The notes beneath the pieces were generated by a model. The model did not search any database. It saw nothing but the letters and a program-made list of their open reading frames with translations, and was not told the origin of the DNA. From IMG/VR virus record IMGVR_UViG_3300042519_001303, positions 1 to 64,000 of that record: 64,000 nt of DNA; one strand, given 5' to 3'. Shown piece by piece: positions 12,210 to 63,684 of the stretch; position 1 is the first letter of the stretch, and each line of letters begins with the position of its first letter. Position numbers and translations under genes: made by a program. This DNA comes from a virus.

Positions 12210-12237
12210 ATGGGTGGGGGCAGAAACCCCCACCCAT
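12210..12237 (+). terminator. Hairpin downstream of the major capsid gene
   Basis: ATGGGTGGGGG (12210-12220) pairs perfectly with CCCCCACCCAT (12227-12237) around a CAGAAA loop: an 11-bp, very GC-rich stem in AT-rich surroundings, 52 bases after the capsid stop. The downstream U-tract is weak (TACCATTTATA), so partial termination or mRNA 3'-end protection is more likely than full termination. Confidence 0.6.
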
Positions 12238-31618: not shown

Positions 31619-31650
31619 CAAAAGGCCCCCGCAAGGGGGCCTTTTGTTAT
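31619..31650 (+). terminator. Bidirectional intrinsic terminator
   Basis: CAAAAGGCCCCC (31619-31630) pairs perfectly with GGGGGCCTTTTG (31635-31646) around a GCAA loop. With A-tract on the left and T-tract on the right, it ends the rightward structural operon and could also stop leftward transcripts arriving from the Dps block. The convergent layout of genes on either side fits this. Confidence 0.9.
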
Positions 31651-41040: not shown

Positions 41041-43128
41041 ATGAACCAGTTGAATGGTTGCATGGGGGGCTTAACGGCCCCCCATGTTGTATCTACAATA
41101 GAAGAGTTACAGGAGATTGTAGCTACAATTACTGAGGTAGGGGCGTTTGCATTTGACGTTGAAACCCGAGGTATTGTAGAACGACATTCTGATGTTATGG
41201 CTTGGATTGACCAGGAATGGGAAACACACGCTACAACTATTAAAACAACCTCTGAAGATGTAATTGCCCGATCAAAAGAAATCCTTGTAAACAAATGGGC
41301 AAATACTCTTGCGTTAGATCCAATGCGTAATGAAGTCTTTTGGCTTGGTCTTGCTACAGAGGGGCATTCATGGGCAATCCCAATGGGGCACCCCAACGGT
41401 GAAATCATTATCCCCGAAGAACGTGGCGATGGTTCTACAATCCCACCAAGTGGTTACCGTAAACTCCTGGCTAATGGTAAGGAGTCAATGGCTAAGGGTA
41501 GGTATTATATCCCAGCAGTGTTTTCCCCTGCCCCGGAACAGCTGTCTCGAACTGAAGTTTTTAAGGAACTTGAACCCATATTCTTTGGTGATCTTGTTAA
41601 GGTCGGACATAACGTCAAATTTGACGCAAGATCTGTTCGTAAGTACTTTGATAATGAGTTGCCAGAAGGTCCATTTATTGACACTATGATTGCTCAGCAT
41701 ATTCTTAATGAGAACCTATCAGAGTACAGTCTTGACAAGCTTATAGCTCACAACTTTGGTGGGTTTAACCCTTACCATCAGGACGGTAAGCTTGGTGCAA
41801 TAATCACTCAGGTTCCTTTTTCAAAAGCAACAAAGTATGTGCACCTAGATGCCAAATGGACATGGCATTTGTACAAAATTCTTTGGCAGAAGATTCAAAA
41901 CAAAGAAGAGTTGTTGTCATGTCTGCGCCAAGACATGGAAGTTATCCGTGTGCTTATGGAAATGGAAGATACAGGTATCCCTGTTGACCATAGATCTATG
42001 AAGAAGTTAGGTGTTGAACTAGACAAAAATCTAAACAACCTGCTTCTAAATATGATGGACTACGCTCCCCCTGGATTTAACCCAGATAGCCCCAAGCATA
42101 AACAACAACTGTTGTTTACTAAGAAGCGAGAGGGGGGTCTTGGTCTAAAGCCCACCAAGTTTACAGAAAAGGGTTCAGCCTCAGTAGACGAAGAAGCTTT
42201 ACACAACCTTGAGGCCAAACACCCAATTGTTCCAATGTTGATTGACTGGGCAGAAACAAAAAAGGTCAAGTCAACTTATGTTGATGGTTTGCTCACAAAG
42301 TTAAACAAAGGCTCTCTACATCCGTCCTTCCACTTACACAGAACTGCTACGGGTCGTTTGTCCTCAAGCAACCCTAACTTACAGAACATCCCAAGAGACA
42401 GTAGCGTTCGTAGTTTGTTTGTGGCCACTCCAGGAAACGTTTTGTTAGTAGCTGACTATGACCAGATTGAACTGCGTGTCATGTGTATGTTCTCAGGGGA
42501 TAAGAAAATGAGTGAGTTCTTTCTCAATGGCGATGATATTCACTCTGGAGCAGCTGCTCTTATATTGGGTAAACCAGTTGAGGAAGTTACTTCAGAAGAA
42601 CGCCAACTTGGAAAAGGCGTTAACTTCTTAACTGCTTATGGTGGAGGCCCTCAAAAACTAGCAAGAACAACTGGCGTTGATGAAGAGCATGCACGGTTTG
42701 TTATTGACCAGTACTACAAGCAGTTCTCAGGAATAACTAAATGGAAGAAGTCCATCATTGATGAGGGTATAAAAATGGGGTATGTAAAAACTATCTCAGG
42801 TCGTCGTCGTAGACTTCCTGATTTACGATCAGATGATTACATGTTACGTTCTAGAGCAGAGCGTCAGGCTGTAAATGCAGTAGTACAAGGATCAGCGGCT
42901 GATATCTGTAAGAAAGCAATGATTGACGTTTATGAAGTACTCAAGTACACAGACTCTAATATAATTGTTCAGGTTCATGACGAACTAGTGGCCATGGTTC
43001 CAGAAGACTCAGTTGACATAATTCAGCCATTGTTTATAAATGCCATGGGTGATGGTAACATTATTAATGGAATACCATTGAGAGTGTCCTGTCACTCAGC
43101 TTATAACTGGTCGGAGGCGAAAGGATGA
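41041..43128 (+). CDS. DNA polymerase I family, with 3'-5' exonuclease
   Basis: 695 residues. Exonuclease motifs: FAFDVETRG (Asp39, Glu41), KVGHNVKFDAR and a later tyrosine-based region. A roughly 50-residue insertion (about 45-100) separates exo motif I from the next strand. Polymerase motif A LLVADYDQIELRV (Asp472), motif B RQAVNAVVQGSAADI, motif C QVHDELV (Asp647). No 5'-3' exonuclease domain is present. It overlaps the next gene by four bases. Confidence 0.95.
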   Translation: MNQLNGCMGGLTAPHVVSTIEELQEIVATITEVGAFAFDVETRGIVERHSDVMAWIDQEWETHATTIKTTSEDVIARSKEILVNKWANTLALDPMRNEVFWLGLATEGHSWAIPMGHPNGEIIIPEERGDGSTIPPSGYRKLLANGKESMAKGRYYIPAVFSPAPEQLSRTEVFKELEPIFFGDLVKVGHNVKFDARSVRKYFDNELPEGPFIDTMIAQHILNENLSEYSLDKLIAHNFGGFNPYHQDGKLGAIITQVPFSKATKYVHLDAKWTWHLYKILWQKIQNKEELLSCLRQDMEVIRVLMEMEDTGIPVDHRSMKKLGVELDKNLNNLLLNMMDYAPPGFNPDSPKHKQQLLFTKKREGGLGLKPTKFTEKGSASVDEEALHNLEAKHPIVPMLIDWAETKKVKSTYVDGLLTKLNKGSLHPSFHLHRTATGRLSSSNPNLQNIPRDSSVRSLFVATPGNVLLVADYDQIELRVMCMFSGDKKMSEFFLNGDDIHSGAAALILGKPVEEVTSEERQLGKGVNFLTAYGGGPQKLARTTGVDEEHARFVIDQYYKQFSGITKWKKSIIDEGIKMGYVKTISGRRRRLPDLRSDDYMLRSRAERQAVNAVVQGSAADICKKAMIDVYEVLKYTDSNIIVQVHDELVAMVPEDSVDIIQPLFINAMGDGNIINGIPLRVSCHSAYNWSEAKG

Positions 43129-43994: not shown

Positions 43995-45014
43995 ATGCGC
44001 ATTGATGCAACACGCGAGAGCCTTGATTCAATCATCTCCGCAATCAATAAAAAGTACGGCGAAAACATAATTGTCCAAGGTAATCAAGTCAAAGAAGAAG
44101 TACCTCGTATTACTACAGGCATTCTTGCATATGACCTAATGCTTGGAGGAGGCTGGCCAGCAAACCAGTGGTCTGAGATCATTGGAGATGAATCCTCAGG
44201 AAAAACTGCTCTTGCTTACAAAACTATTGCGGCTAATCAAGCAATAGATCCAGACTGGGTAGCAATGTGGATTGCCGCTGAAGAGTTTGTACCTGACTAT
44301 GCCAAAGCAATCGGTGTTGATCTTGACCGACTTTGGGTTGTTGAAACCAACGTTATGGAACAAGTCTATGATTTGATTATTCGTGCGATGGAAAACCGTG
44401 CGGTTGACTGCATTGTTCTTGACTCTTTACCCGCACTCGTCCCAGGCGACGAAGCAGAAAAAATGATGGATGAGTTTACAATGGGGTTAGGTGCACGTCT
44501 TACAGGTAAGTTCTTCCGTAAGAGTAGCAAGGCACAGAAACGCTCAATGGTCGTAGAAGATCGTGGTTGTACAGGATTGATCATTAACCAATGGCGTGAA
44601 AAGATTGGCGTAATGTATGGTGACCCACGCACCACCCCAGGTGGTAAGGCCAAGAACTTCCATTACTTTGCCAGAGTAGAAGTTAAGCGTGACGAGTGGA
44701 TTAAAGAAAAGGATGAGCCAGTAGGTCAAACCATCCGTGCTCGTACAATGAAAAATAAGACATACCGCCCACAGCAGGTTGCCGTCGTAGACTTCTACTT
44801 TTCAGAGGCAAACGGTTTTAAACTTGGGGAATTTGACACTATCAAAGATATCGTAAACATCTGTATCTCGGTAGAAATCATTACACGAGGTGGGGCGTAC
44901 TACAATTACAACGGGCAGAAGTGGCAAGGTAAGGAAGCATTACTTAATGCTGTTCGTGAAGATCTAGACATGCAAGCAGAATTACGACAGAAAGCTACGG
45001 AGTATTTCCTATGA
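43995..45014 (+). CDS. recA: RecA-family recombinase
   Basis: 339 residues. Walker A GDESSGKT (64-71), catalytic Glu96 in WIAAEEF, Walker B-like VDCIVLDSLPAL, and a segment like the L2 region near GCTGLIINQWREKIG. It forms filaments on ssDNA for recombination-dependent replication and repair. AAGGAA precedes the start. Neighbouring resolvase-like nucleases complete a recombination set. Confidence 0.9.
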   Translation: MRIDATRESLDSIISAINKKYGENIIVQGNQVKEEVPRITTGILAYDLMLGGGWPANQWSEIIGDESSGKTALAYKTIAANQAIDPDWVAMWIAAEEFVPDYAKAIGVDLDRLWVVETNVMEQVYDLIIRAMENRAVDCIVLDSLPALVPGDEAEKMMDEFTMGLGARLTGKFFRKSSKAQKRSMVVEDRGCTGLIINQWREKIGVMYGDPRTTPGGKAKNFHYFARVEVKRDEWIKEKDEPVGQTIRARTMKNKTYRPQQVAVVDFYFSEANGFKLGEFDTIKDIVNICISVEIITRGGAYYNYNGQKWQGKEALLNAVREDLDMQAELRQKATEYFL

Positions 45015-45340
45015 TGTTTGGTAGAGAAGAAAAGCGTTCAATAATGAAAGCTTCTAAGAAGCAAGAGAACCGTTCTGCAAAAATATATAAGGGTAGCCGT
45101 AATGCAGGATCAGGTTCAGGTTGGATGCGCAAGAATGACGTGCGTACCCATGAACTTCTTATTGAAAATAAACTTACAAATAATGTTAAATCATACTCAG
45201 TTAAATCCCAAGAGCTGGTAGAGTTAACACAACGTGCAGTACTAGAAGATAGATTACCGGTTTTGCAGTTTGATCTTGGTGGTCGTCATTATGTAGTACT
45301 AAACGAAGCCGACTTCCAAATGCTTATTGGAGAACAATGA
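45011..45340 (+). CDS. PD-(D/E)xK nuclease, resolvase-like
   Basis: 109 residues, overlapping the recA-like stop by four bases. Sequence GSGSGWMRKNDVRTHELLIE then NKLTNN shows an Asp and a Glu-x-x-Lys-like pair, then RLPVLQFDLGGRHYVVLNEAD. This looks like a small phage Holliday-junction-resolvase or PD-(D/E)xK nuclease. It would process recombination intermediates formed by the RecA. Confidence is moderate because the motif is short. Confidence 0.55.
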   Translation: MMFGREEKRSIMKASKKQENRSAKIYKGSRNAGSGSGWMRKNDVRTHELLIENKLTNNVKSYSVKSQELVELTQRAVLEDRLPVLQFDLGGRHYVVLNEADFQMLIGEQ

Positions 45341-45513
45341 ATAGGTATGATCAGTCAAGCTTAATAGAATATGGTTTATCTAAAGAAACAGATCAACCAG
45401 ATTGGCAAACTATTGCCAAGAACCTATATGAAGTTATTCAACAAGGTACCGAAATGCCTGTTCATATAGGATTACAATACATAGAAGACTACATTAAGGC
45501 GACTCGTGGATAA
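45337..45513 (+). CDS. Small hypothetical protein, 58 residues
   Basis: ATG 45337 overlaps the previous stop (ATGA) and opens 58 codons to TAA 45511-45513. Helical, acidic (MNRYDQSSLIEYGLSKETDQ, then YIEDYIKATRG). No domain. Coupled within the recombination operon. Confidence 0.5.
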   Translation: MNRYDQSSLIEYGLSKETDQPDWQTIAKNLYEVIQQGTEMPVHIGLQYIEDYIKATRG

Positions 45514-45643
45514 TACACCAAATGTTGAAAAATTGCGTAGTGATTGTGAACACTTAGCAAGAATTATTGCATCAATGTACAACTGGAAAAATAAGAGTGT
45601 TGAAGAAATCATCGCTGCTTTTCCAAAGGAAACAAATGACTGA
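45506..45643 (+). CDS. Small hypothetical protein, 45 residues
   Basis: GTG 45506 overlaps the previous gene by eight bases and opens 45 codons (DNTPNVEKLRSDCEHLARII, NKSVEEIIAAFPKETND) to TGA 45641-45643, overlapping the next start at 45636. Stop-start overlap on both sides supports reality; no function recognised. Confidence 0.45.
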   Translation: MDNTPNVEKLRSDCEHLARIIASMYNWKNKSVEEIIAAFPKETND

Positions 45644-46505
45644 TACCCCGTGGTACACAAAGAACTACAAAGACTTAGCCAAGGTTAAGGGAAGAATCCT
45701 CCCAGCAATTCAAACTCAAGTGGCTCTTAATAGCAAAGAGCGCAATAGCACTAGAGACACAGAACATCTACACCCATCAGAACTTTCCAAAAAAGACTGG
45801 TGTGCCAGAGCCGCATGGTATAAAATTAAACAACACCCTGCGGCAGATGAATCACTAGCTTTTAGCCGCCTTAACATATTTGAGGAGGGCCATGCGATAC
45901 ATGCAAAATGGCAAAAGTGGATTCAGCAAGCTGGCATTCTTGGTGGCACCTGGGAATGTGAGGCTTGTCATGAACGCTGGGAAGGCGTTTCTCCTGAGTG
46001 TTGTCCTGTTTGTTCTAGTGATGCCTTTCGCTATCGGGAGGTACCTGTACGTAACGATGCACACAGAATACTCGGTCACGCGGATGGAGAAGTTGTGGAT
46101 GCGGATGGTAGAGCCCTTATTGAGATAAAAAGCGTAGGGTTAGGAACTGTTAGGTGGGACCACCCAACTCTCTTTAAAGCCTACTCAAGTGGAGAACTTA
46201 CTCTTGATGGACTTTGGAAGAACATTAAAAAGCCGTTTGCTTCGCACGTTCGACAAGGCCATGTGTACATGTATTGCACAGGGCATGACAGTATTGTTTT
46301 TATTTACGAGTGGAAGCCCACACAAGAGGTAAAAGAGTTTACGGTAAATTACCAAGAAGAAATTATGCAACCAATACTAGATAACTGCAAGACAGTTATG
46401 CATCATTTAGAGGAAGATACTCTTCCTGATACACCAGATTGGGCTTATGACAAAAACTCTAACGGATGCAAGTTTTGCCCGTATAAAAAGGAATGCTGGA
46501 AATGA
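45636..46505 (+). CDS. Cas4/RecB-like PD-(D/E)xK nuclease with Fe-S cysteines
   Basis: 289 residues from ATG 45636. Nuclease core: GHAIHAKWQ (His86, His89), ILGHADGEV (Asp150) and LIEIKS (Glu163, Lys165). Cys56 plus a C-terminal trio Cys278, Cys281, Cys287 (CKFCPYKKEC) fit a Cas4/AddB-type iron-sulfur cluster. Between them an extra zinc-ribbon-like insertion (Cys108, Cys111, Cys123, Cys126) is unusual. Likely a 5'-resecting exonuclease that prepares ends for the RecA. Confidence 0.82.
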   Translation: MTDTPWYTKNYKDLAKVKGRILPAIQTQVALNSKERNSTRDTEHLHPSELSKKDWCARAAWYKIKQHPAADESLAFSRLNIFEEGHAIHAKWQKWIQQAGILGGTWECEACHERWEGVSPECCPVCSSDAFRYREVPVRNDAHRILGHADGEVVDADGRALIEIKSVGLGTVRWDHPTLFKAYSSGELTLDGLWKNIKKPFASHVRQGHVYMYCTGHDSIVFIYEWKPTQEVKEFTVNYQEEIMQPILDNCKTVMHHLEEDTLPDTPDWAYDKNSNGCKFCPYKKECWK

Positions 46506-46999
46506 GAGTAATACCCAAAGTTGAAGATGAAGGCCCAGCACTTACACGCTTTAAAACTAAATTTACGTTACCAACACGACCATCAGACTCTCCACCAGAC
46601 TTACCTAATGATCTAGATGATATGGATGATAGAGATCTCATGAATGTTTACACAGAGTTTATGGCATGGGTGTCATACCTTAAAGGCCAGTTAGTCCAAG
46701 CAGAGATTGAAGAAGATAGAGAGGGTAACCAATGTCGGGTTACAGAGGCAAGAGTTTTAATAGAGCAATGGGGAGCAGATGCCAAGGGGGATCGCGTTAC
46801 TATCGCAAAAGCAAAAAGAGATGTAGATTCCCGCGTCTTGTCCCAACAAGAGAAATACCAAGTTTCTAGAGCATACAGAAAGTTATTAGAAGCACTGTTT
46901 GATTCATGTGAACGTGGAGCACAATTGCTTTCACGCGAACTTAGTCGTAGAATTGGTTTGCACAGTAAAGAACAACGTACATCAAGATTTGGAGCATGA
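46502..46999 (+). CDS. Hypothetical helical protein
   Basis: 165 residues, overlapping the nuclease stop (ATGA). Pro/Asp-rich N-terminus, then long charged helices (KRDVDSRVLSQQEKYQVSRA, KLLEALFDSCERGAQLLSRE). No family recognised; co-transcribed with recombination genes. Confidence 0.5.
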   Translation: MRVIPKVEDEGPALTRFKTKFTLPTRPSDSPPDLPNDLDDMDDRDLMNVYTEFMAWVSYLKGQLVQAEIEEDREGNQCRVTEARVLIEQWGADAKGDRVTIAKAKRDVDSRVLSQQEKYQVSRAYRKLLEALFDSCERGAQLLSRELSRRIGLHSKEQRTSRFGA

Positions 47000-47000
47000 T

Positions 47001-47186
47001 ATGCCAACATGGGATGAAATTGGAGCTAAAAACGCTAGAGAAGCAAATGAGCGTATGCGTCAAGATGCAAACGCAAGAGCCTCAATTGCGCCAATTAATG
47101 AAGTAAACCATACTCTAAAAGAAATTAAAGCCCTTCTTATAGAGATTAGAAATGTAATAAAGGACACCAAGAATGTCAGCGGCTAA
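47001..47186 (+). CDS. Small helical hypothetical protein, 61 residues
   Basis: ATG 47001 lies one base after the previous stop. Coiled-coil-like: MPTWDEIGAKNAREANERMR, then HTLKEIKALLIEIRNVIKDT. It overlaps the next gene by 14 bases. No function recognised. Confidence 0.45.
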   Translation: MPTWDEIGAKNAREANERMRQDANARASIAPINEVNHTLKEIKALLIEIRNVIKDTKNVSG

Positions 47187-47535
47187 ACAAAAAGGTACTT
47201 CCTTTGAAACAGCTATACGTAAATACCTCAATACCAAAGGTTTTCCTAAAGCATCCCGCACAGTTCTAAAGGGCGGAGAAGACACTGGGGATATCAATGG
47301 TATCCGTAATGAGGGACAAGAACGAGAGCTCGCCATACAGTGTAAAAACCAACGTAAGTTAAGCTTAAGTGGCTGGTTAGATGCTACAGTAGAACAAGCA
47401 GCTAGGTTAGGAAAATCAATGCCTGCCTTAGTTGTTAAACGCGCTGGTAAAGGCGAAAAAGCATTGGGTGATACATATGTTGTGATGAGGTTAGATGACT
47501 TCGTTACACTGCTACAAGAGGGTGGTTACTCGTAA
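47173..47535 (+). CDS. Hjc-like PD-(D/E)xK resolvase/endonuclease
   Basis: 120 residues. KQKGTSFETAIRKYLNTKGF, then TVLKGGEDTGDINGIRNEGQ and LAIQCKNQRK give the Glu, GDI-Asp and Q-x-K triad of the archaeal Hjc-type/phage endonuclease superfamily. It probably cuts Holliday or branched junctions. It is the last gene before a hairpin. Confidence 0.8.
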   Translation: MSAAKQKGTSFETAIRKYLNTKGFPKASRTVLKGGEDTGDINGIRNEGQERELAIQCKNQRKLSLSGWLDATVEQAARLGKSMPALVVKRAGKGEKALGDTYVVMRLDDFVTLLQEGGYS

Positions 47536-47537
47536 AA

Positions 47538-47563
47538 TTAAAGGGTTGATAATAACCCTTTAA
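47538..47563 (+). terminator. Hairpin before the SpoVS gene
   Basis: TTAAAGGGTT (47538-47547) pairs perfectly with AACCCTTTAA (47554-47563) around GATAAT, a 10-bp AT-rich stem just past the resolvase stop. No U-tract, so it may be a weak terminator, processing site or regulator of the SpoVS start at 47580. Confidence 0.4.
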
Positions 47564-47579
47564 CCATATGGAGTAACTT

Positions 47580-47861
47580 ATGTCACAAGATAATGTAGAC
47601 GATATTGTAAAAGTTTCCGGTAGCAGCAACCCACAGAGTGTTGGCTCTATCGTAGCCCGAGCGGTCATTGCTGGCCAGCATCCAAAGATGCGTGCTATTG
47701 GCGCAAGTGCCGTAAACCAGGCTGTAAAAGCATGTGCTATTGCACGTGGGTTTGTCGCACCAAGGGGTGTTGACCTGTGCTTTGTCATTGGTTTTGATGA
47801 CATTGAAGGGGATAACGGAGAGACCATCTCAGCTATCGCTTTTAGACCTGTCGAACGATAA
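47580..47861 (+). CDS. spoVS: SpoVS-like (Alba superfamily) protein
   Basis: 93 residues. After VDDIVKVSGSSNPQSVGSIV come the diagnostic SpoVS segments AIGASAVNQAVKACAIARGF then VAPRGVDLCFVIGF. SpoVS is a small Alba-fold regulator of sporulation and septation in Bacillus, and homologues occur in non-sporulating bacteria and phages. RNA or DNA binding is plausible. ATG 47580 follows TGGAGTAACTT. The gene is flanked by two hairpins as if it were a separate unit. Confidence 0.9.
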   Translation: MSQDNVDDIVKVSGSSNPQSVGSIVARAVIAGQHPKMRAIGASAVNQAVKACAIARGFVAPRGVDLCFVIGFDDIEGDNGETISAIAFRPVER

Positions 47862-47885
47862 TACCCCTGTATAAAGTGGTATTAT
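47858..47885 (+). terminator. Hairpin overlapping the SpoVS stop
   Basis: ATAATACC (47858-47865) pairs with GGTATTAT (47878-47885), loop 12 bases, followed by TGTTTATCTTGTCTTTC. It includes the SpoVS stop codon. AT-rich and moderate in strength; could be a weak terminator or mRNA-processing hairpin. Confidence 0.35.
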
Positions 47886-47924
47886 TGTTTATCTTGTCTT
47901 TCACTATTTAGGAGACCCCCCACC

Positions 47925-50900
47925 ATGGCAGCAAAGAAAAAAGGCGCATCTGACAAAGATCCAGCACCTAAGAAAACAACACCTAAAAAACCAGCAGCTA
48001 AAAAAGAAGATACTCCTAAAAAAGAAACAAAAAAGAAGATTGGTGAGGGAGTTTCCCTTCCAAAGAGCGAGCGAGCAGTTTCAAACAACGCTCGCGCCAA
48101 TATGTTGAGGCTTAAAAAAGAAAAGGAAGATCAAGAAGCATTACTTTTAAGTAGTGGTGTTTCCGCTCAGCAAGCTTCTGATGCTGCCGAAATAGCTAGA
48201 CTTGCCCAAATAGAAGCCTTGAAGGGTAGTAGTGTTGTACCTGAAAGAGCTGCACTAGATGAAGAAGACGCAGCTTTTTCTGAATTAACAGCTAAAAGAG
48301 CTTTAGAAGATAAAGCAAGAGAACTCAGTGCATCTAAGCTTTCAAAGGGAAATAAAAAGACTTATGGTGGTAGAACTGCCTTTAGAGCTCTTCCAGAAGC
48401 CAGAAAAGCCAGTATTATGGCTGCTCGTGAAAATACACGTAAGATTATTGAAGCGGTAAAGCCTGCTCGTAGAGGCAGAGAACAACAGGCAGCTGAAGAC
48501 GCAGTTCTTGCAGACGTCATAGGTGATACAGACACTTCTACTCTTGTTCCCCCTGGTGAAAATAAGCGTAGACAAAGAAGCCAAGCACGAGCTGCAGCAG
48601 GAACCACTAGTAACAGGTCTCGTACAGTACGCCAACAGCGGGCTGTAAGCGCCAACGTTCCTAAGAGAGATAATACTGCTAAACCTGTTAGCACCACACG
48701 TATAGACCCCAAAAAGTTAAAAAGAGTACCAAGGGATCAGGCTGAAATTGACAGGGAAATACAGGCACGTAAAGATAAAGCTGCAAGCAAATCTCGTGTT
48801 GCAGGAGCTGGGTTACCTTTAAATCAAGTTGAAGGTATTGATGATAACGCTATGGGTAACGTAGCCACAGCAGATACTGCATCTAGAAACTTTAATAGAG
48901 AAGGGGAGGTTACTGAAGTAACTCGCCCTTCAGCACAAGAATTGAGTGTTGCTGGAATCAGCATTAGTTCTGATAGATTAAATAGGCTTATGTATGGTGA
49001 CCCACAGGGTACCAAGTCAGAACGTTTGCAATCGCAAAACTTTTGGTCACAACATCCGGTAGAAAGCTTTTTTCACCCAGACGCTGGAAATGTTGATGCA
49101 TTAAAACTGGCTCATGAACGACCTGATTTGCTAAAGCCAGAAAACAGAGAAGCTGCAATAGCAGAAGGTATTAGCCCTGAGTTACACGAAGAACTTGGCA
49201 ACTTAACTCCTGAAGAACGTCATATTCGTTATGAGGACGCCGCTGCTAATGCTCCAGATAAAAACGCTTATGATAAATTTACATCAGTAATTGCACAGAC
49301 ATATAAAGAAGCCCGCCAGGGAACTCGGGGATCAACAAGGGTAGCTGGTATAGAAGCAGAAAAACCAATTGAAGGGTTAAGCCATGAAAAAGCCACAGAA
49401 ATGGCTTATAAAGCTGGACTTGCAGAGATACAAAAATTCCAGACAATGAATAATAGGGGAGCACTAAATATTTCCGAATCTATTAAGCGTTTAAGAAGAA
49501 TAGAAGAAGAAAATTTAGTTACTAAAAAAGATGTTGCGGGTGAGTCGGAACAAGTAATAGACCCAAAACAATTTGAAGGCCTAGACACTGCGGACATTAG
49601 TGCCTTAATACTAGGTGGGCAAGTGCGTACTACAGCTGCTCCACTCAATACTGTTTTGAGTAGACAATTATTTGTAAAAGGCGCAGCTCCAGGAAAAGAC
49701 AAGCCTGATGAAAGACCTGTTAGTGTTAAAGGTACAGCCGCTCAGGGTCGTTCAGTACTTTCTGAAGGAATGCCTGCAAGACTACAGCAGCAACTTAGAG
49801 ATAACCCAGTTAAAGCCCAAAGACACCTTGGTAAAATTGCCAGAGAAGCAACTGGTTCTAGCCTTGTAGTTCCTCATAACCCCATAACTGGTAAAAGCTA
49901 TGGTGACACCATACAAGGGGCACACTTTATAGAAGACCCATATACCGGCACTTTAGCAAAAGTTAATATGCTTGCTGGAATGCAAACAAGTGCTATGGAC
50001 CAGTTTGGAGAGCTGTCTACTCTTACTGAAGACCACCCCAGCTATGATCCAAAATTGCATGCTCAACATATTGGCGCCCATGTTCTTAAAGTAGACCCAG
50101 ACAAAGCATTTTTAGCATCTCATGCTGACGACGAAGAATCTGATAACGAAACATCTGTGTCACTCCACAGAAAAGTTACTACAACTGATTCAACTAACTC
50201 TAGACATCCTAATTTGCCAACTCTTGCCGGTGCAATAGGTGACCAACACCTTGAAGGTGTTCGAAAATGGCAAGAAGCTGGTCTTCGTACAAACCCAAGT
50301 GTTAAAGAAGAAGCAGCAGCAGATCCTTACATGGATGTTTCTAGCGATGAAACTGGCGAAGCAATTAAAAGACACACAGCTGCAGCTCTTGGTTTAACTG
50401 ATAGGCCCTCTCAAACAATGCGCACAGTTAATGGTGTTACTTTTAATACAAGAGGACCAGTTATACCTGGAAGAATCAGCCAGATTATTTCCGATAGAAG
50501 AGCACTTGATACTTCTGCAGCCGAATCAGCTGCTGGTGCTATCAACGATCTCTCTGAAGGTGGCACTGCTGCTAAAGCAGACACCGTTACGGATATGCCA
50601 TACAAAACTGCACAACAGCAGGCATGGTCTGAAATAAATGCTAGACAAGACGAATCAGCTGCTAAAAGAAAAGCTGAAGATACTACCTATGATTCTGATA
50701 TGTCTGACTATATAAAAGAAATGGAAGGTTTTGACAAAGAAAATCCAGGAGTTGTAGCACGAGAAGATCTTGAACAAAAAGCTAGTTCAATAGCTGGTCT
50801 TTCAAAAACTATTGCTAATAAGGCGGTACAGCACATTACTTCTGGGGCTTCTCCAGAAGCAGTGGGGCTTAATATTGATGACATGATTCAACAACACGAT

Positions 50901-51947
50901 TTAGGTGATCACCATCATGTTGTTAAAGACCTTGTAGCAAGACACGTAGGTATCAGTTTGTCTGAAAGTCTTATTAAAGCTACCAACCCTGAAACTAAAG
51001 CCGCCTATAAACCAGCAGACTATTCTGAACACCTTGGAAAAGCAGCAAGAGCTGCAGCAGAAGGTAAAGATATCACAGGTATTGAATCATCAGTAACAAG
51101 CCCCGGTGGTGTACGAAAAGAAGTATTAAATTACTTAAGAACAACGCTTCCAGCAGACCACCCACTATCTGCAAAACCAGTTGGAAACACCGCAAGAGAA
51201 GTTGTAGGTGAACCACTTTCACAAGAAGTGCGCCCATCTTTTGCAACTTTCCGTAAACCACGCTTAAATGCAAGAGCTACTGCTGCTGAATTGGAAAGTG
51301 TTACAGGAAGGTTTGATAATGACCCGCCACAGCCTGTAACACCTGCTCCAGTTCCTAAAGGACAACTAACCTTACCAAGACAGTCAGAAACAAACAGGTT
51401 AAGCTCACAATTTAGTGTTCCAGAAAACGCGGATGTTTATACCAGAACAGCTTTACAAGGACTTCAAAAAGCTGAGTTTGTAAAATCTCCAATACTTAGA
51501 AATTTTGAAACTAATGAAAGAACTGGAGAAAGAAGATACACTGATAGTTTGGGAATAGCCAGTCACCCTGATGATCAAATACTTGACGAAAAAGGTAAAG
51601 TTGCTGGCATTAACGTTACTTCACGTAATCCTCGTATGGGTAAACGCCTGTATGCTACTTCACCTGGACAAATATCCGATGCAAAACTAGAGTATGGCAA
51701 TTCGGACGTATCGCCTGTTAATAGAAACATCCCTCCAACTCCATCACGTCAACAATCAGTAATGAACACTCGGCAACTTGGAACTGGAGCACAATTTGGT
51801 GAATCAGGATTGACACCGACTGATAGGCCACTCATGGCTGGTGACAGCATGCCAACTGGTCGTTTATTTAACGCTGGACAGTACGCAAAAATTGCTCCAA
51901 AAAGAATGCGTCAACAAGAAGTACTCTCCCCTGATACAAACAACTAA
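47925..51947 (+). CDS. 1340-residue lysine-tailed protein of unknown function
   Basis: The largest gene in the window. The first 45 residues are a histone H1-like tail (MAAKKKGASDKDPAPKKTTP, KKPAAKKEDTPKKETKKK), followed by long charged, Ala/Arg/Glu-rich, probably helical or disordered regions. A more structured part spans about 350-480 (SQNFWSQHPVESFFHPDAGN, LTPEERHIRYEDAAANAP) and 640-720. No membrane segment, enzyme motif or known domain recognised. Strong AGGAG upstream. Size and place at the head of a late-type block suggest a virion or internal head protein; that is inference. Confidence 0.6.
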   Translation: MAAKKKGASDKDPAPKKTTPKKPAAKKEDTPKKETKKKIGEGVSLPKSERAVSNNARANMLRLKKEKEDQEALLLSSGVSAQQASDAAEIARLAQIEALKGSSVVPERAALDEEDAAFSELTAKRALEDKARELSASKLSKGNKKTYGGRTAFRALPEARKASIMAARENTRKIIEAVKPARRGREQQAAEDAVLADVIGDTDTSTLVPPGENKRRQRSQARAAAGTTSNRSRTVRQQRAVSANVPKRDNTAKPVSTTRIDPKKLKRVPRDQAEIDREIQARKDKAASKSRVAGAGLPLNQVEGIDDNAMGNVATADTASRNFNREGEVTEVTRPSAQELSVAGISISSDRLNRLMYGDPQGTKSERLQSQNFWSQHPVESFFHPDAGNVDALKLAHERPDLLKPENREAAIAEGISPELHEELGNLTPEERHIRYEDAAANAPDKNAYDKFTSVIAQTYKEARQGTRGSTRVAGIEAEKPIEGLSHEKATEMAYKAGLAEIQKFQTMNNRGALNISESIKRLRRIEEENLVTKKDVAGESEQVIDPKQFEGLDTADISALILGGQVRTTAAPLNTVLSRQLFVKGAAPGKDKPDERPVSVKGTAAQGRSVLSEGMPARLQQQLRDNPVKAQRHLGKIAREATGSSLVVPHNPITGKSYGDTIQGAHFIEDPYTGTLAKVNMLAGMQTSAMDQFGELSTLTEDHPSYDPKLHAQHIGAHVLKVDPDKAFLASHADDEESDNETSVSLHRKVTTTDSTNSRHPNLPTLAGAIGDQHLEGVRKWQEAGLRTNPSVKEEAAADPYMDVSSDETGEAIKRHTAAALGLTDRPSQTMRTVNGVTFNTRGPVIPGRISQIISDRRALDTSAAESAAGAINDLSEGGTAAKADTVTDMPYKTAQQQAWSEINARQDESAAKRKAEDTTYDSDMSDYIKEMEGFDKENPGVVAREDLEQKASSIAGLSKTIANKAVQHITSGASPEAVGLNIDDMIQQHDLGDHHHVVKDLVARHVGISLSESLIKATNPETKAAYKPADYSEHLGKAARAAAEGKDITGIESSVTSPGGVRKEVLNYLRTTLPADHPLSAKPVGNTAREVVGEPLSQEVRPSFATFRKPRLNARATAAELESVTGRFDNDPPQPVTPAPVPKGQLTLPRQSETNRLSSQFSVPENADVYTRTALQGLQKAEFVKSPILRNFETNERTGERRYTDSLGIASHPDDQILDEKGKVAGINVTSRNPRMGKRLYATSPGQISDAKLEYGNSDVSPVNRNIPPTPSRQQSVMNTRQLGTGAQFGESGLTPTDRPLMAGDSMPTGRLFNAGQYAKIAPKRMRQQEVLSPDTNN

Positions 51948-59314: not shown

Positions 59315-59694
59315 CCTCTAAACCTTGGATGGAAGAGTCACCATGCAAGGGAATACATCCAAACTTGTTTTTCCCCCCATTAGAGGAGACCAACCACAAT
59401 GCCTACTACAAAGTGGGTAAGGCAGTATGCAACACTTGTCCAGTGTGGCAAAGTTGCCTCGATTATGGTATTGAAGAACACTGGGGTTTGTGGGGTGGAT
59501 TGACACCTCAAGAAAGACGTGGTACAGCAAGAATGCATCATGGATCTCTTGAAATGTATCGTTCAGGATGCAGATGTCCTAAGTGTAGAGAGGCCTCTGT
59601 AGTAGTTAGGAAACATGTCACATTAGACATATTCCCTGCTAGAGGGCAAGATTTTGACATAGAATCATTAGTTTTTAAACTTTCTAGCATGTGA
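59311..59694 (+). CDS. WhiB-like transcription regulator with extra C-terminal cysteines
   Basis: 127 residues, four-base overlap with the previous gene. Cys12, Cys40, Cys43 and Cys49 (CNTCPVWQSC) are the WhiB Fe-S ligands, followed by GLWGG (59-63) and a basic helix. A C-terminal extension adds SGCRCPKC (Cys87, Cys89, Cys92), unusual for WhiB. These redox- or NO-sensitive proteins bind sigma factors in actinobacteria; phage copies may redirect host transcription. Confidence 0.88.
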   Translation: MTSKPWMEESPCKGIHPNLFFPPLEETNHNAYYKVGKAVCNTCPVWQSCLDYGIEEHWGLWGGLTPQERRGTARMHHGSLEMYRSGCRCPKCREASVVVRKHVTLDIFPARGQDFDIESLVFKLSSM

Positions 59695-63420: not shown

Positions 63421-63684
63421 CTAATGTTTATGATTTACAGGAGCAAATACAAGACCTAGTTCTTTACGTATTTTGTTACGTTCTCTAGATGTCTTGCCAC
63501 CATATATTCCGTAGGTGTCATATATGGGGTTAATGTGTACGGCCTCATCTAAGCATTCAGCTTTGACTGAACATGTATCACATATCTTTCTTGCTTCTTT
63601 ACTTGACTCACCTTTACTAAGGAAGAATCTTTCTGTTGGTATGCCAAGACAAGCAGCCATGGATCGCCATTCTTTAGTTTCCAT
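63421..63684 (-). CDS. WhiB-like transcription regulator
   Basis: 87 residues, leftward. Cys12, Cys35, Cys38 and Cys44 (CDTCSVKAEC) are the Fe-S ligands; GIYGGKTSRERNKIR gives the WhiB turn and basic helix. It is a shorter, more standard WhiB than the one at 59311 and only distantly similar to it. Presumably controls host or phage transcription. Confidence 0.9.
   Translation of the reverse strand: METKEWRSMAACLGIPTERFFLSKGESSKEARKICDTCSVKAECLDEAVHINPIYDTYGIYGGKTSRERNKIRKELGLVFAPVNHKH

Follow-up and report, generated by a model that had tools for sequence, protein, structure and literature searches.

The spoVS gene of the analyzed phage lies directly behind a resolvase gene and is preceded by a hairpin, which comparison with relatives identifies as a conserved, covarying leader of phage spoVS genes. 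On balance, we think it probable that this leader serves as a timing switch of a core gene, like those of the T4 genes e, soc, 49, and I-TevI. In these T4 genes, the ribosome binding site is hidden in long early transcripts, and translatable RNA comes from a late promoter located in the 5′ hairpin strand (PMC3014915; PMC2988022). In the corresponding scheme for spoVS, RNA reading through from the resolvase gene would fold into the leader hairpin; in most relatives, this would hide the Shine–Dalgarno (SD) sequence and leave SpoVS poorly translated. A promoter with the −10 element overlapping the resolvase stop codon in the clade of the window, and located just before or inside the hairpin in other clades, would give an RNA that starts inside the hairpin, has no 5′ arm, and could be freely translated. 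The scheme supposes that the hexamer is a promoter with the predicted start site, that its timing differs from that of the upstream transcript, and that SpoVS and the resolvase act jointly on nucleic acid. The protein family and fold, the clade, the neighborhood, the covarying hairpin, the −10-like hexamer, and the predicted masking and release in relatives were computed.

The window, a 64,000-nucleotide stretch of DNA, is part of an 86,770-base (about 86.8 kb) IMG/VR record, which encodes terminase, portal, major head protein, tail sheath, tube, and baseplate proteins, as well as a DnaB-like helicase, a DNA polymerase, and a UvsX/RecA-like recombinase. By its gene set, this is a contractile-tailed phage (myovirus). 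The nearest isolates are the Streptomyces phages of the BRock group, such as BRock (Borockvirus), Alone3, LuckySocke, GiJojo, and pSt2308, with 45% identity in TerL and 35% in the sheath, and these comparisons place the phage in a large, WhiB-bearing lineage related to BRock. The lineage is presumably mostly freshwater, going by the type of IMG sample. The whiB gene was found in 17 of 20 records in one set of relatives and in 20 of 20 in another, and the record of the window has two copies (Table 1). Actinobacteria do not form Bacillus-type endospores. Because WhiB is a marker of actinobacterial phages (PMC6802176; PMC10202952), its genes in this lineage suggest that the host is probably an actinobacterium and not an endospore former.

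Table 1. Features of the spoVS locus and host-marker genes, in window positions
Feature	Position	Strand	Basis
Upstream gene, RusA-like Holliday-junction resolvase / PDDEXK nuclease	47173..47535	+	PHROG 244 E=1.6e-26; Pfam PDDEXK_15 E=9e-8
−10-like hexamer TAAAAT, overlaps resolvase stop codon, predicted promoter	47533..47538	+	TAnnnT conservation; no −35 match
Leader hairpin, 4-nt loop, 10 perfect pairs and a closing G-U	47538..47563	+	sequence; fold kept in relatives
Predicted transcription start region, in 5′ arm and loop edge of hairpin	47543..47549	+	placed 5–9 nt after hexamer
Shine–Dalgarno GGAG of spoVS	47570..47573	+	sequence
spoVS, 93-aa SpoVS-family protein of actinophage clade	47580..47861	+	Pfam PF04232 E=7.8e-21
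Downstream 8-bp stem, overlaps spoVS stop codon	47858..47885	+	sequence; not generally kept in relatives
TAAAGTGGTATTAT, promoter-like motif before next gene	47872..47885	+	−10-like TATTAT at 47880–47885
Downstream gene, 1340 aa, no family match	47925..51947	+	ORF list, profile searches
WhiB-like gene, host marker	59326..59520	+	PF02467 E=8.8e-16
WhiB-like gene, host marker	63472..63669	−	PF02467 E=1.4e-16

The sequence-only reading had recognized a SpoVS protein with an Alba-like fold, and both assignments were borne out. The open reading frame contains the SpoVS core NQAVKACAIARGFVAP, and its residues 8–89 matched positions 1–81 of the 83 in the Pfam model with 74.1 bits, compared to a curated cut-off of 24. 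The AlphaFold model (pLDDT 92) was matched by Foldseek to Thermus thermophilus SpoVS (2eh1/2ek0; TM 0.83, E about 1e-8), and more weakly to the Alba proteins 2z7c, 3toe, 1nfj, and 3wbm (TM about 0.6), the last of which is an Alba–RNA complex. While phage SpoVS has the beta-alpha-beta-alpha-beta-beta fold of the Alba superfamily (archaeal Alba, Rpp20/Rpp25, 3WBM), hmmsearch against the PDB gave significant matches to SpoVS only; a SpoVS–Alba relation has been reported using HHpred (PMC11621453). The phage protein shares with the SpoVS family (B. subtilis, T. thermophilus) the fold, a profile score far above the cut-off, and the invariant residues K11, S16, G41, N46, Q47, K50, and F72. It differs from this family in forming a clade on its own long branch, in extra conserved basic residues, in the resolvase neighbor and structured leader of its gene, and in hosts that are probably not endospore formers. 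The basic residues of clade 1 are R27, K/R36, R38, and R62, at positions where cellular SpoVS mostly has G, E, Q, or D, and R38 and R62 are also present in the Borock group. Together with the predicted Alba fold and the resolvase neighbor, these residues favor a role of phage SpoVS on nucleic acid. The searched literature holds no established answer to what SpoVS does at the molecular level, and the phage leader and locus could offer a way into this question.

The first search gave 188 viral relatives of the window SpoVS, and a second clade had more than 570. Among records picked by terminase, not by SpoVS, the gene was present in all 10 of at least 70 kb, while the four records without it were all fragments of 40–69 kb; spoVS is thus a core gene of the lineage. 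It is under strong purifying selection (dN/dS of 0.006–0.08 in the pairs where it was computable), and the proteins within clade 1 are 73%–90% identical. In a phylogeny with bacterial SpoVS, which had been proposed as a check in the sequence-only reading, SpoVS of the WhiB-bearing lineage separated as one group from cellular SpoVS (support 99/100); as the tree has 94 columns and a long-branch row (L144), this main split alone is trusted. Copies from Firmicutes phages, a Stenotrophomonas phage, and two gut phage contigs fell among cellular SpoVS. The searches found no cellular SpoVS more than 48% identical to the phage protein, and this result, together with the separate phage clade, led us to reject a capture of spoVS from the host. 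SpoVS was found in 38 of 41 sampled genomes of the Ruminococcus phylum and in 18 of 41 of the Chloroflexi phylum, and was absent from Corynebacterium glutamicum, the one control actinobacterium examined.

The position of spoVS is also conserved. By gene order, it sits at the end of the replication/recombination block, and a resolvase relative is located directly upstream in 209 of 209 clade-1, 123 of 130 clade-2-like, and 11 of 18 Borock-like loci. Two unrelated families supply this enzyme, RusA-like PDDEXK (PHROG 244) and RuvC-like (PHROG 159), and they swap across the clade-1, clade-2, and Borock-like loci while the position of spoVS is constant. The constancy of the pairing despite the enzyme swap suggests that it is kept for position and function, and not by common descent of the pair. 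In the BRock-type phages, whose SpoVS is 42%–45% identical to that of the window, the gene is likewise placed directly behind a resolvase; however, this resolvase is RuvC-like, the leader hairpin is weak or broken, and an intrinsic-terminator-like stem precedes the promoter-like site. In four Streptomyces phage loci (L145, L146, L149, and L150) a strong terminator-like stem between resolvase and spoVS is followed by a conserved TACAAT.

What is new in this analysis is the upstream hairpin, which is kept with altered sequence and compensatory pairs. The two perfect stems noted earlier on either side of spoVS do exist in the window, the upstream one with 10-bp arms TTAAAGGGTT/AACCCTTTAA and the tail CCATATGG, and the downstream one with 8 bp. 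The window has 10 perfect stems of at least 10 bp, compared to 0–2 in 12 dinucleotide shuffles, and 39 of at least 8 bp, compared to 7–17. Against dinucleotide shuffles, the folding of clade-1 spoVS leaders had a mean z of −1.94 over 33 clusters (below 68% identity to one another), with 52% below −2. The best leader z of nine other gene families of the same loci was −0.60, so that strong structure is unique to spoVS among those. The leader z was −1.66 for clade 2, −0.55 for Borock-like loci, and 0.03 for 40 cellular spoVS leaders, and the last value led us to reject a structured leader as a general feature of SpoVS. A hairpin ancestral to all relatives was also rejected, because no significant structure was seen in Borock-like leaders, and L149 and L150 have a broken stem.

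Comparison of the paired arms points to an RNA structure. In clade 1 the 5′ part of the leader pairs better with its own SD/start region than with swapped ones (p<5e-5), and in clade 2 own arms likewise pair better than swapped arms (p<5e-5). In RBS-loop hairpins (e.g., GGTAC..AGGA..GTACC, GGAAC/GTTCC, GGGAC/GTCCC, GATAC/GTATC) two-sided changes were seen in five of seven pairs, and 18 cells were changed on both sides compared to 6.2 in shuffles (0/500); because these rows were picked for complementarity, the arm-swap test is the fairer evidence. Among near relatives of the window hairpin pair 6 goes through G-C, G-U, and A-U, and another subgroup interchanges A-U and G-U, as expected for RNA. 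The stem sequence varies freely among relatives while pairing is kept. MAFFT followed by RNAalifold predicted no pairs for the clade-2 leader, which is explained by the plain MAFFT alignment not being structure-aware, and arm-swap tests were used there instead of consensus folding. A known Rfam family was rejected for the leader: 16 loci had no match at the gathering score, window positions 45000–50000 had none at E<=1, and the single match, in L192, was at chance level (E=0.49, 8 bits compared to a gathering score of 55). The clade-2 leaders (L169–L292) share, ~60 nt before spoVS, an invariant GGG, AAGGA, an AC-rich core, and two stems, which together form an RNA element not previously described. 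In the leaders L075, L078, and L082, the pairing partner of the 5′ part is the start codon with codons 2–3, and the difference between L075 and L082 is compensatory via a synonymous serine codon.

A promoter-like hexamer accompanies the hairpin. In clade 1, TAnnnT is located at the resolvase stop, and its T6 was found in 27 of 32 independent leaders compared to 15% at 274 other stops (Fisher p=3e-15), the hexamer being partly made of the stop codon itself. The TAAAAT of the window is not listed by a promoter scan that demands a −35 element. In clade 2, TAnnnT just before the 5′ arm had a frequency of 0.86, compared to 0.15 in shuffles, in seven representatives only. Of the 14 Borock-like leaders, 13 carry TATAAT, TACAAT, or TATTCT 36–47 nt upstream of the start codon, and in L161-type leaders a promoter-like hexamer lies within the loop of the hairpin that pairs with the SD. 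If RNA starts 5–9 nt after the hexamer, the 5′ arm would be lost and the hairpin could not form.

The upstream hairpin is predicted to hide the SD site in most relatives. Between the read-through RNA and the promoter-start RNA, the predicted unpaired fraction of the SD rose from 0.28 to 0.43 in clade 1, from 0.22 to 0.63 in clade 2, and from 0.31 to 0.49 in Borock-like leaders, and a hidden-then-freed SD was predicted in 50%–52% of leaders compared to 15%–21% of control genes. The size of the accessibility gain on 5′ truncation clearly beats that of control genes only in clade 2 (p=0.0007; clade 1 p=0.066, Borock-like p=0.064). The window hairpin lies beside the SD, not over it, with 6 nt between its end and the SD, and the predicted SD accessibility is 0.24–0.77 depending on the assumed start, compared to 0.25 in read-through RNA. 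As this prediction is weak, the case for a timing switch rests on the relatives.

The likeness to T4 e, soc, 49, and I-TevI consists in a gene placed behind earlier-type genes, a predicted hairpin in read-through RNA, a putative promoter element in or next to its 5′ arm, and predicted SD masking in most relatives. The differences are another phage lineage and gene, and a TAnnnT of −10 type in place of the T4 late TATAAATA; the window hairpin beside the SD resembles that of seg43(25) of Aeromonas phage 25, which has been described as next to, not over, the RBS, and left unexplained (PMC3014915; PMC2988022). If the reading is true, the timing logic of T4 lysozyme recurs outside T4-like phages, where the retained leader gives a testable timing prediction and hints that premature SpoVS is costly. 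A further-reaching proposal, which we put forward tentatively, is that SpoVS could be a virus-adapted Alba-type nucleic-acid binder working with the resolvase in late DNA processing, gated by a promoter-inside-hairpin switch that persists through several leader architectures.

Other explanations of the hairpin would assign it to the protein, to the upstream transcript, or to DNA. SpoVS could bind its own leader hairpin and repress its own translation, as T4 gp32 and gp43 do, and the Alba fold common to known RNA-binding proteins, the specificity of the leader hairpin for phage spoVS genes, and the clade-specific basic residues would all fit such an autogenous operator. However, hairpin sequences and shapes differ greatly although clade-1 SpoVS is well conserved, so that no common recognition site is evident, and an autogenous operator does not need a −10-like hexamer at a fixed place; we regard it as unlikely, though worth keeping in view. 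It seems still less probable that the hairpin is a 3′-end element of the resolvase transcript (a terminator, an RNase stop, or a processing site) that keeps two transcripts apart and has no role in translation. BRock, Alone3, pSt2308, and GiJojo do have a strong, GC-rich stem and, after it, a T-rich stretch between resolvase and spoVS, but in many relatives the SD or start codon is part of the stem or is closed over by it, and the arms covary with the SD side. Neither window stem was listed by the terminator scan, and the upstream one has no U-tract; intrinsic termination was rejected for both. The near-perfect dyad directly after the −10-like hexamer could also be viewed as a DNA operator through which a repressor or activator controls an overlapping promoter. 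This is the most improbable of the explanations, since the arm sequences change widely, near relatives keep the pairing by G-U wobble, which is relevant in RNA only, and the dyad is symmetric in some members only, while others pair the leader with the start codon.

That SpoVS is a host-derived dormancy or septation gene, which steers sporulation or division, is hard to reconcile with WhiB pointing to actinobacterial hosts without Bacillus-type endospores, with phage copies in one separate clade (99/100) instead of host captures, with no cellular SpoVS found above 48% identity, and with a resolvase as the constant neighbor, and we consider it very unlikely. In its favor, published work counts viral spoVS among the sporulation auxiliary metabolic genes (AMGs) (PMC8940887; PMC6172770), and WhiB, which accompanies SpoVS, affects septation in mycobacteriophage TM4, according to work cited in PMC6172770. 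The suggestion in the sequence-only reading that SpoVS could alter host division found nothing pointing to it, given the same WhiB and Holliday-junction resolvase associations. Both spoVS and whiB have been reported as endospore-related AMGs of soil viruses (PMC6172770), which may be explained by both genes marking the actinophage lineage. Metagenome papers repeatedly count viral spoVS as a sporulation auxiliary gene; because it is core in one large actinophage clade and tied to the resolvase, its presence should not be taken as evidence of spore-forming hosts, and the sporulation AMG label is not supported in this lineage.

The downstream stem ATAATACC/GGTATTAT (47858–47865 with 47878–47885) behaves differently. 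The earlier view that the two stems mark spoVS as a separate unit at the border of the replication genes holds as far as separate control is concerned, but treating both stems alike does not: the upstream one is conserved, covarying, and accompanied by a promoter-like hexamer, while the downstream one lacks general conservation and overlaps a different promoter-like motif, AAAGTGGTATTAT. This motif is kept in 15 of 19 clade-1 leaders with the next gene more than 15 nt downstream, whereas 41 of 72 distinct leaders of relatives have no second stem, and there the next gene starts at most 15 nt after the spoVS stop. Hence, the case for the 8-bp stem on its own is weak, and the motif and spacing in relatives make spoVS look, in many of them, like the first gene of the following unit rather than an isolated gene. 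A genome-wide promoter motif derived from the downstream element was rejected, because TAWAGTGGTAWNAT with at most two mismatches occurs at chance level in the window, which suggests that the motif is only local.

Other stems were noted elsewhere in the window. A perfect 10-bp hairpin CATGGGGGGC/GCCCCCCATG (41061–41086), with one ATG per arm, is located near the 5′ end of the DNA polymerase ORF (41041–43128), and could possibly control the start region in a way reminiscent of the autocontrol of T4 gene 43. A 12-bp stem CAAAAGGCCCCC/GGGGGCCTTTTG (31619–31646) between convergent genes resembles a bidirectional terminator, and an 11-bp GC-rich hairpin (12210–12237) lies just behind the major head protein gene.
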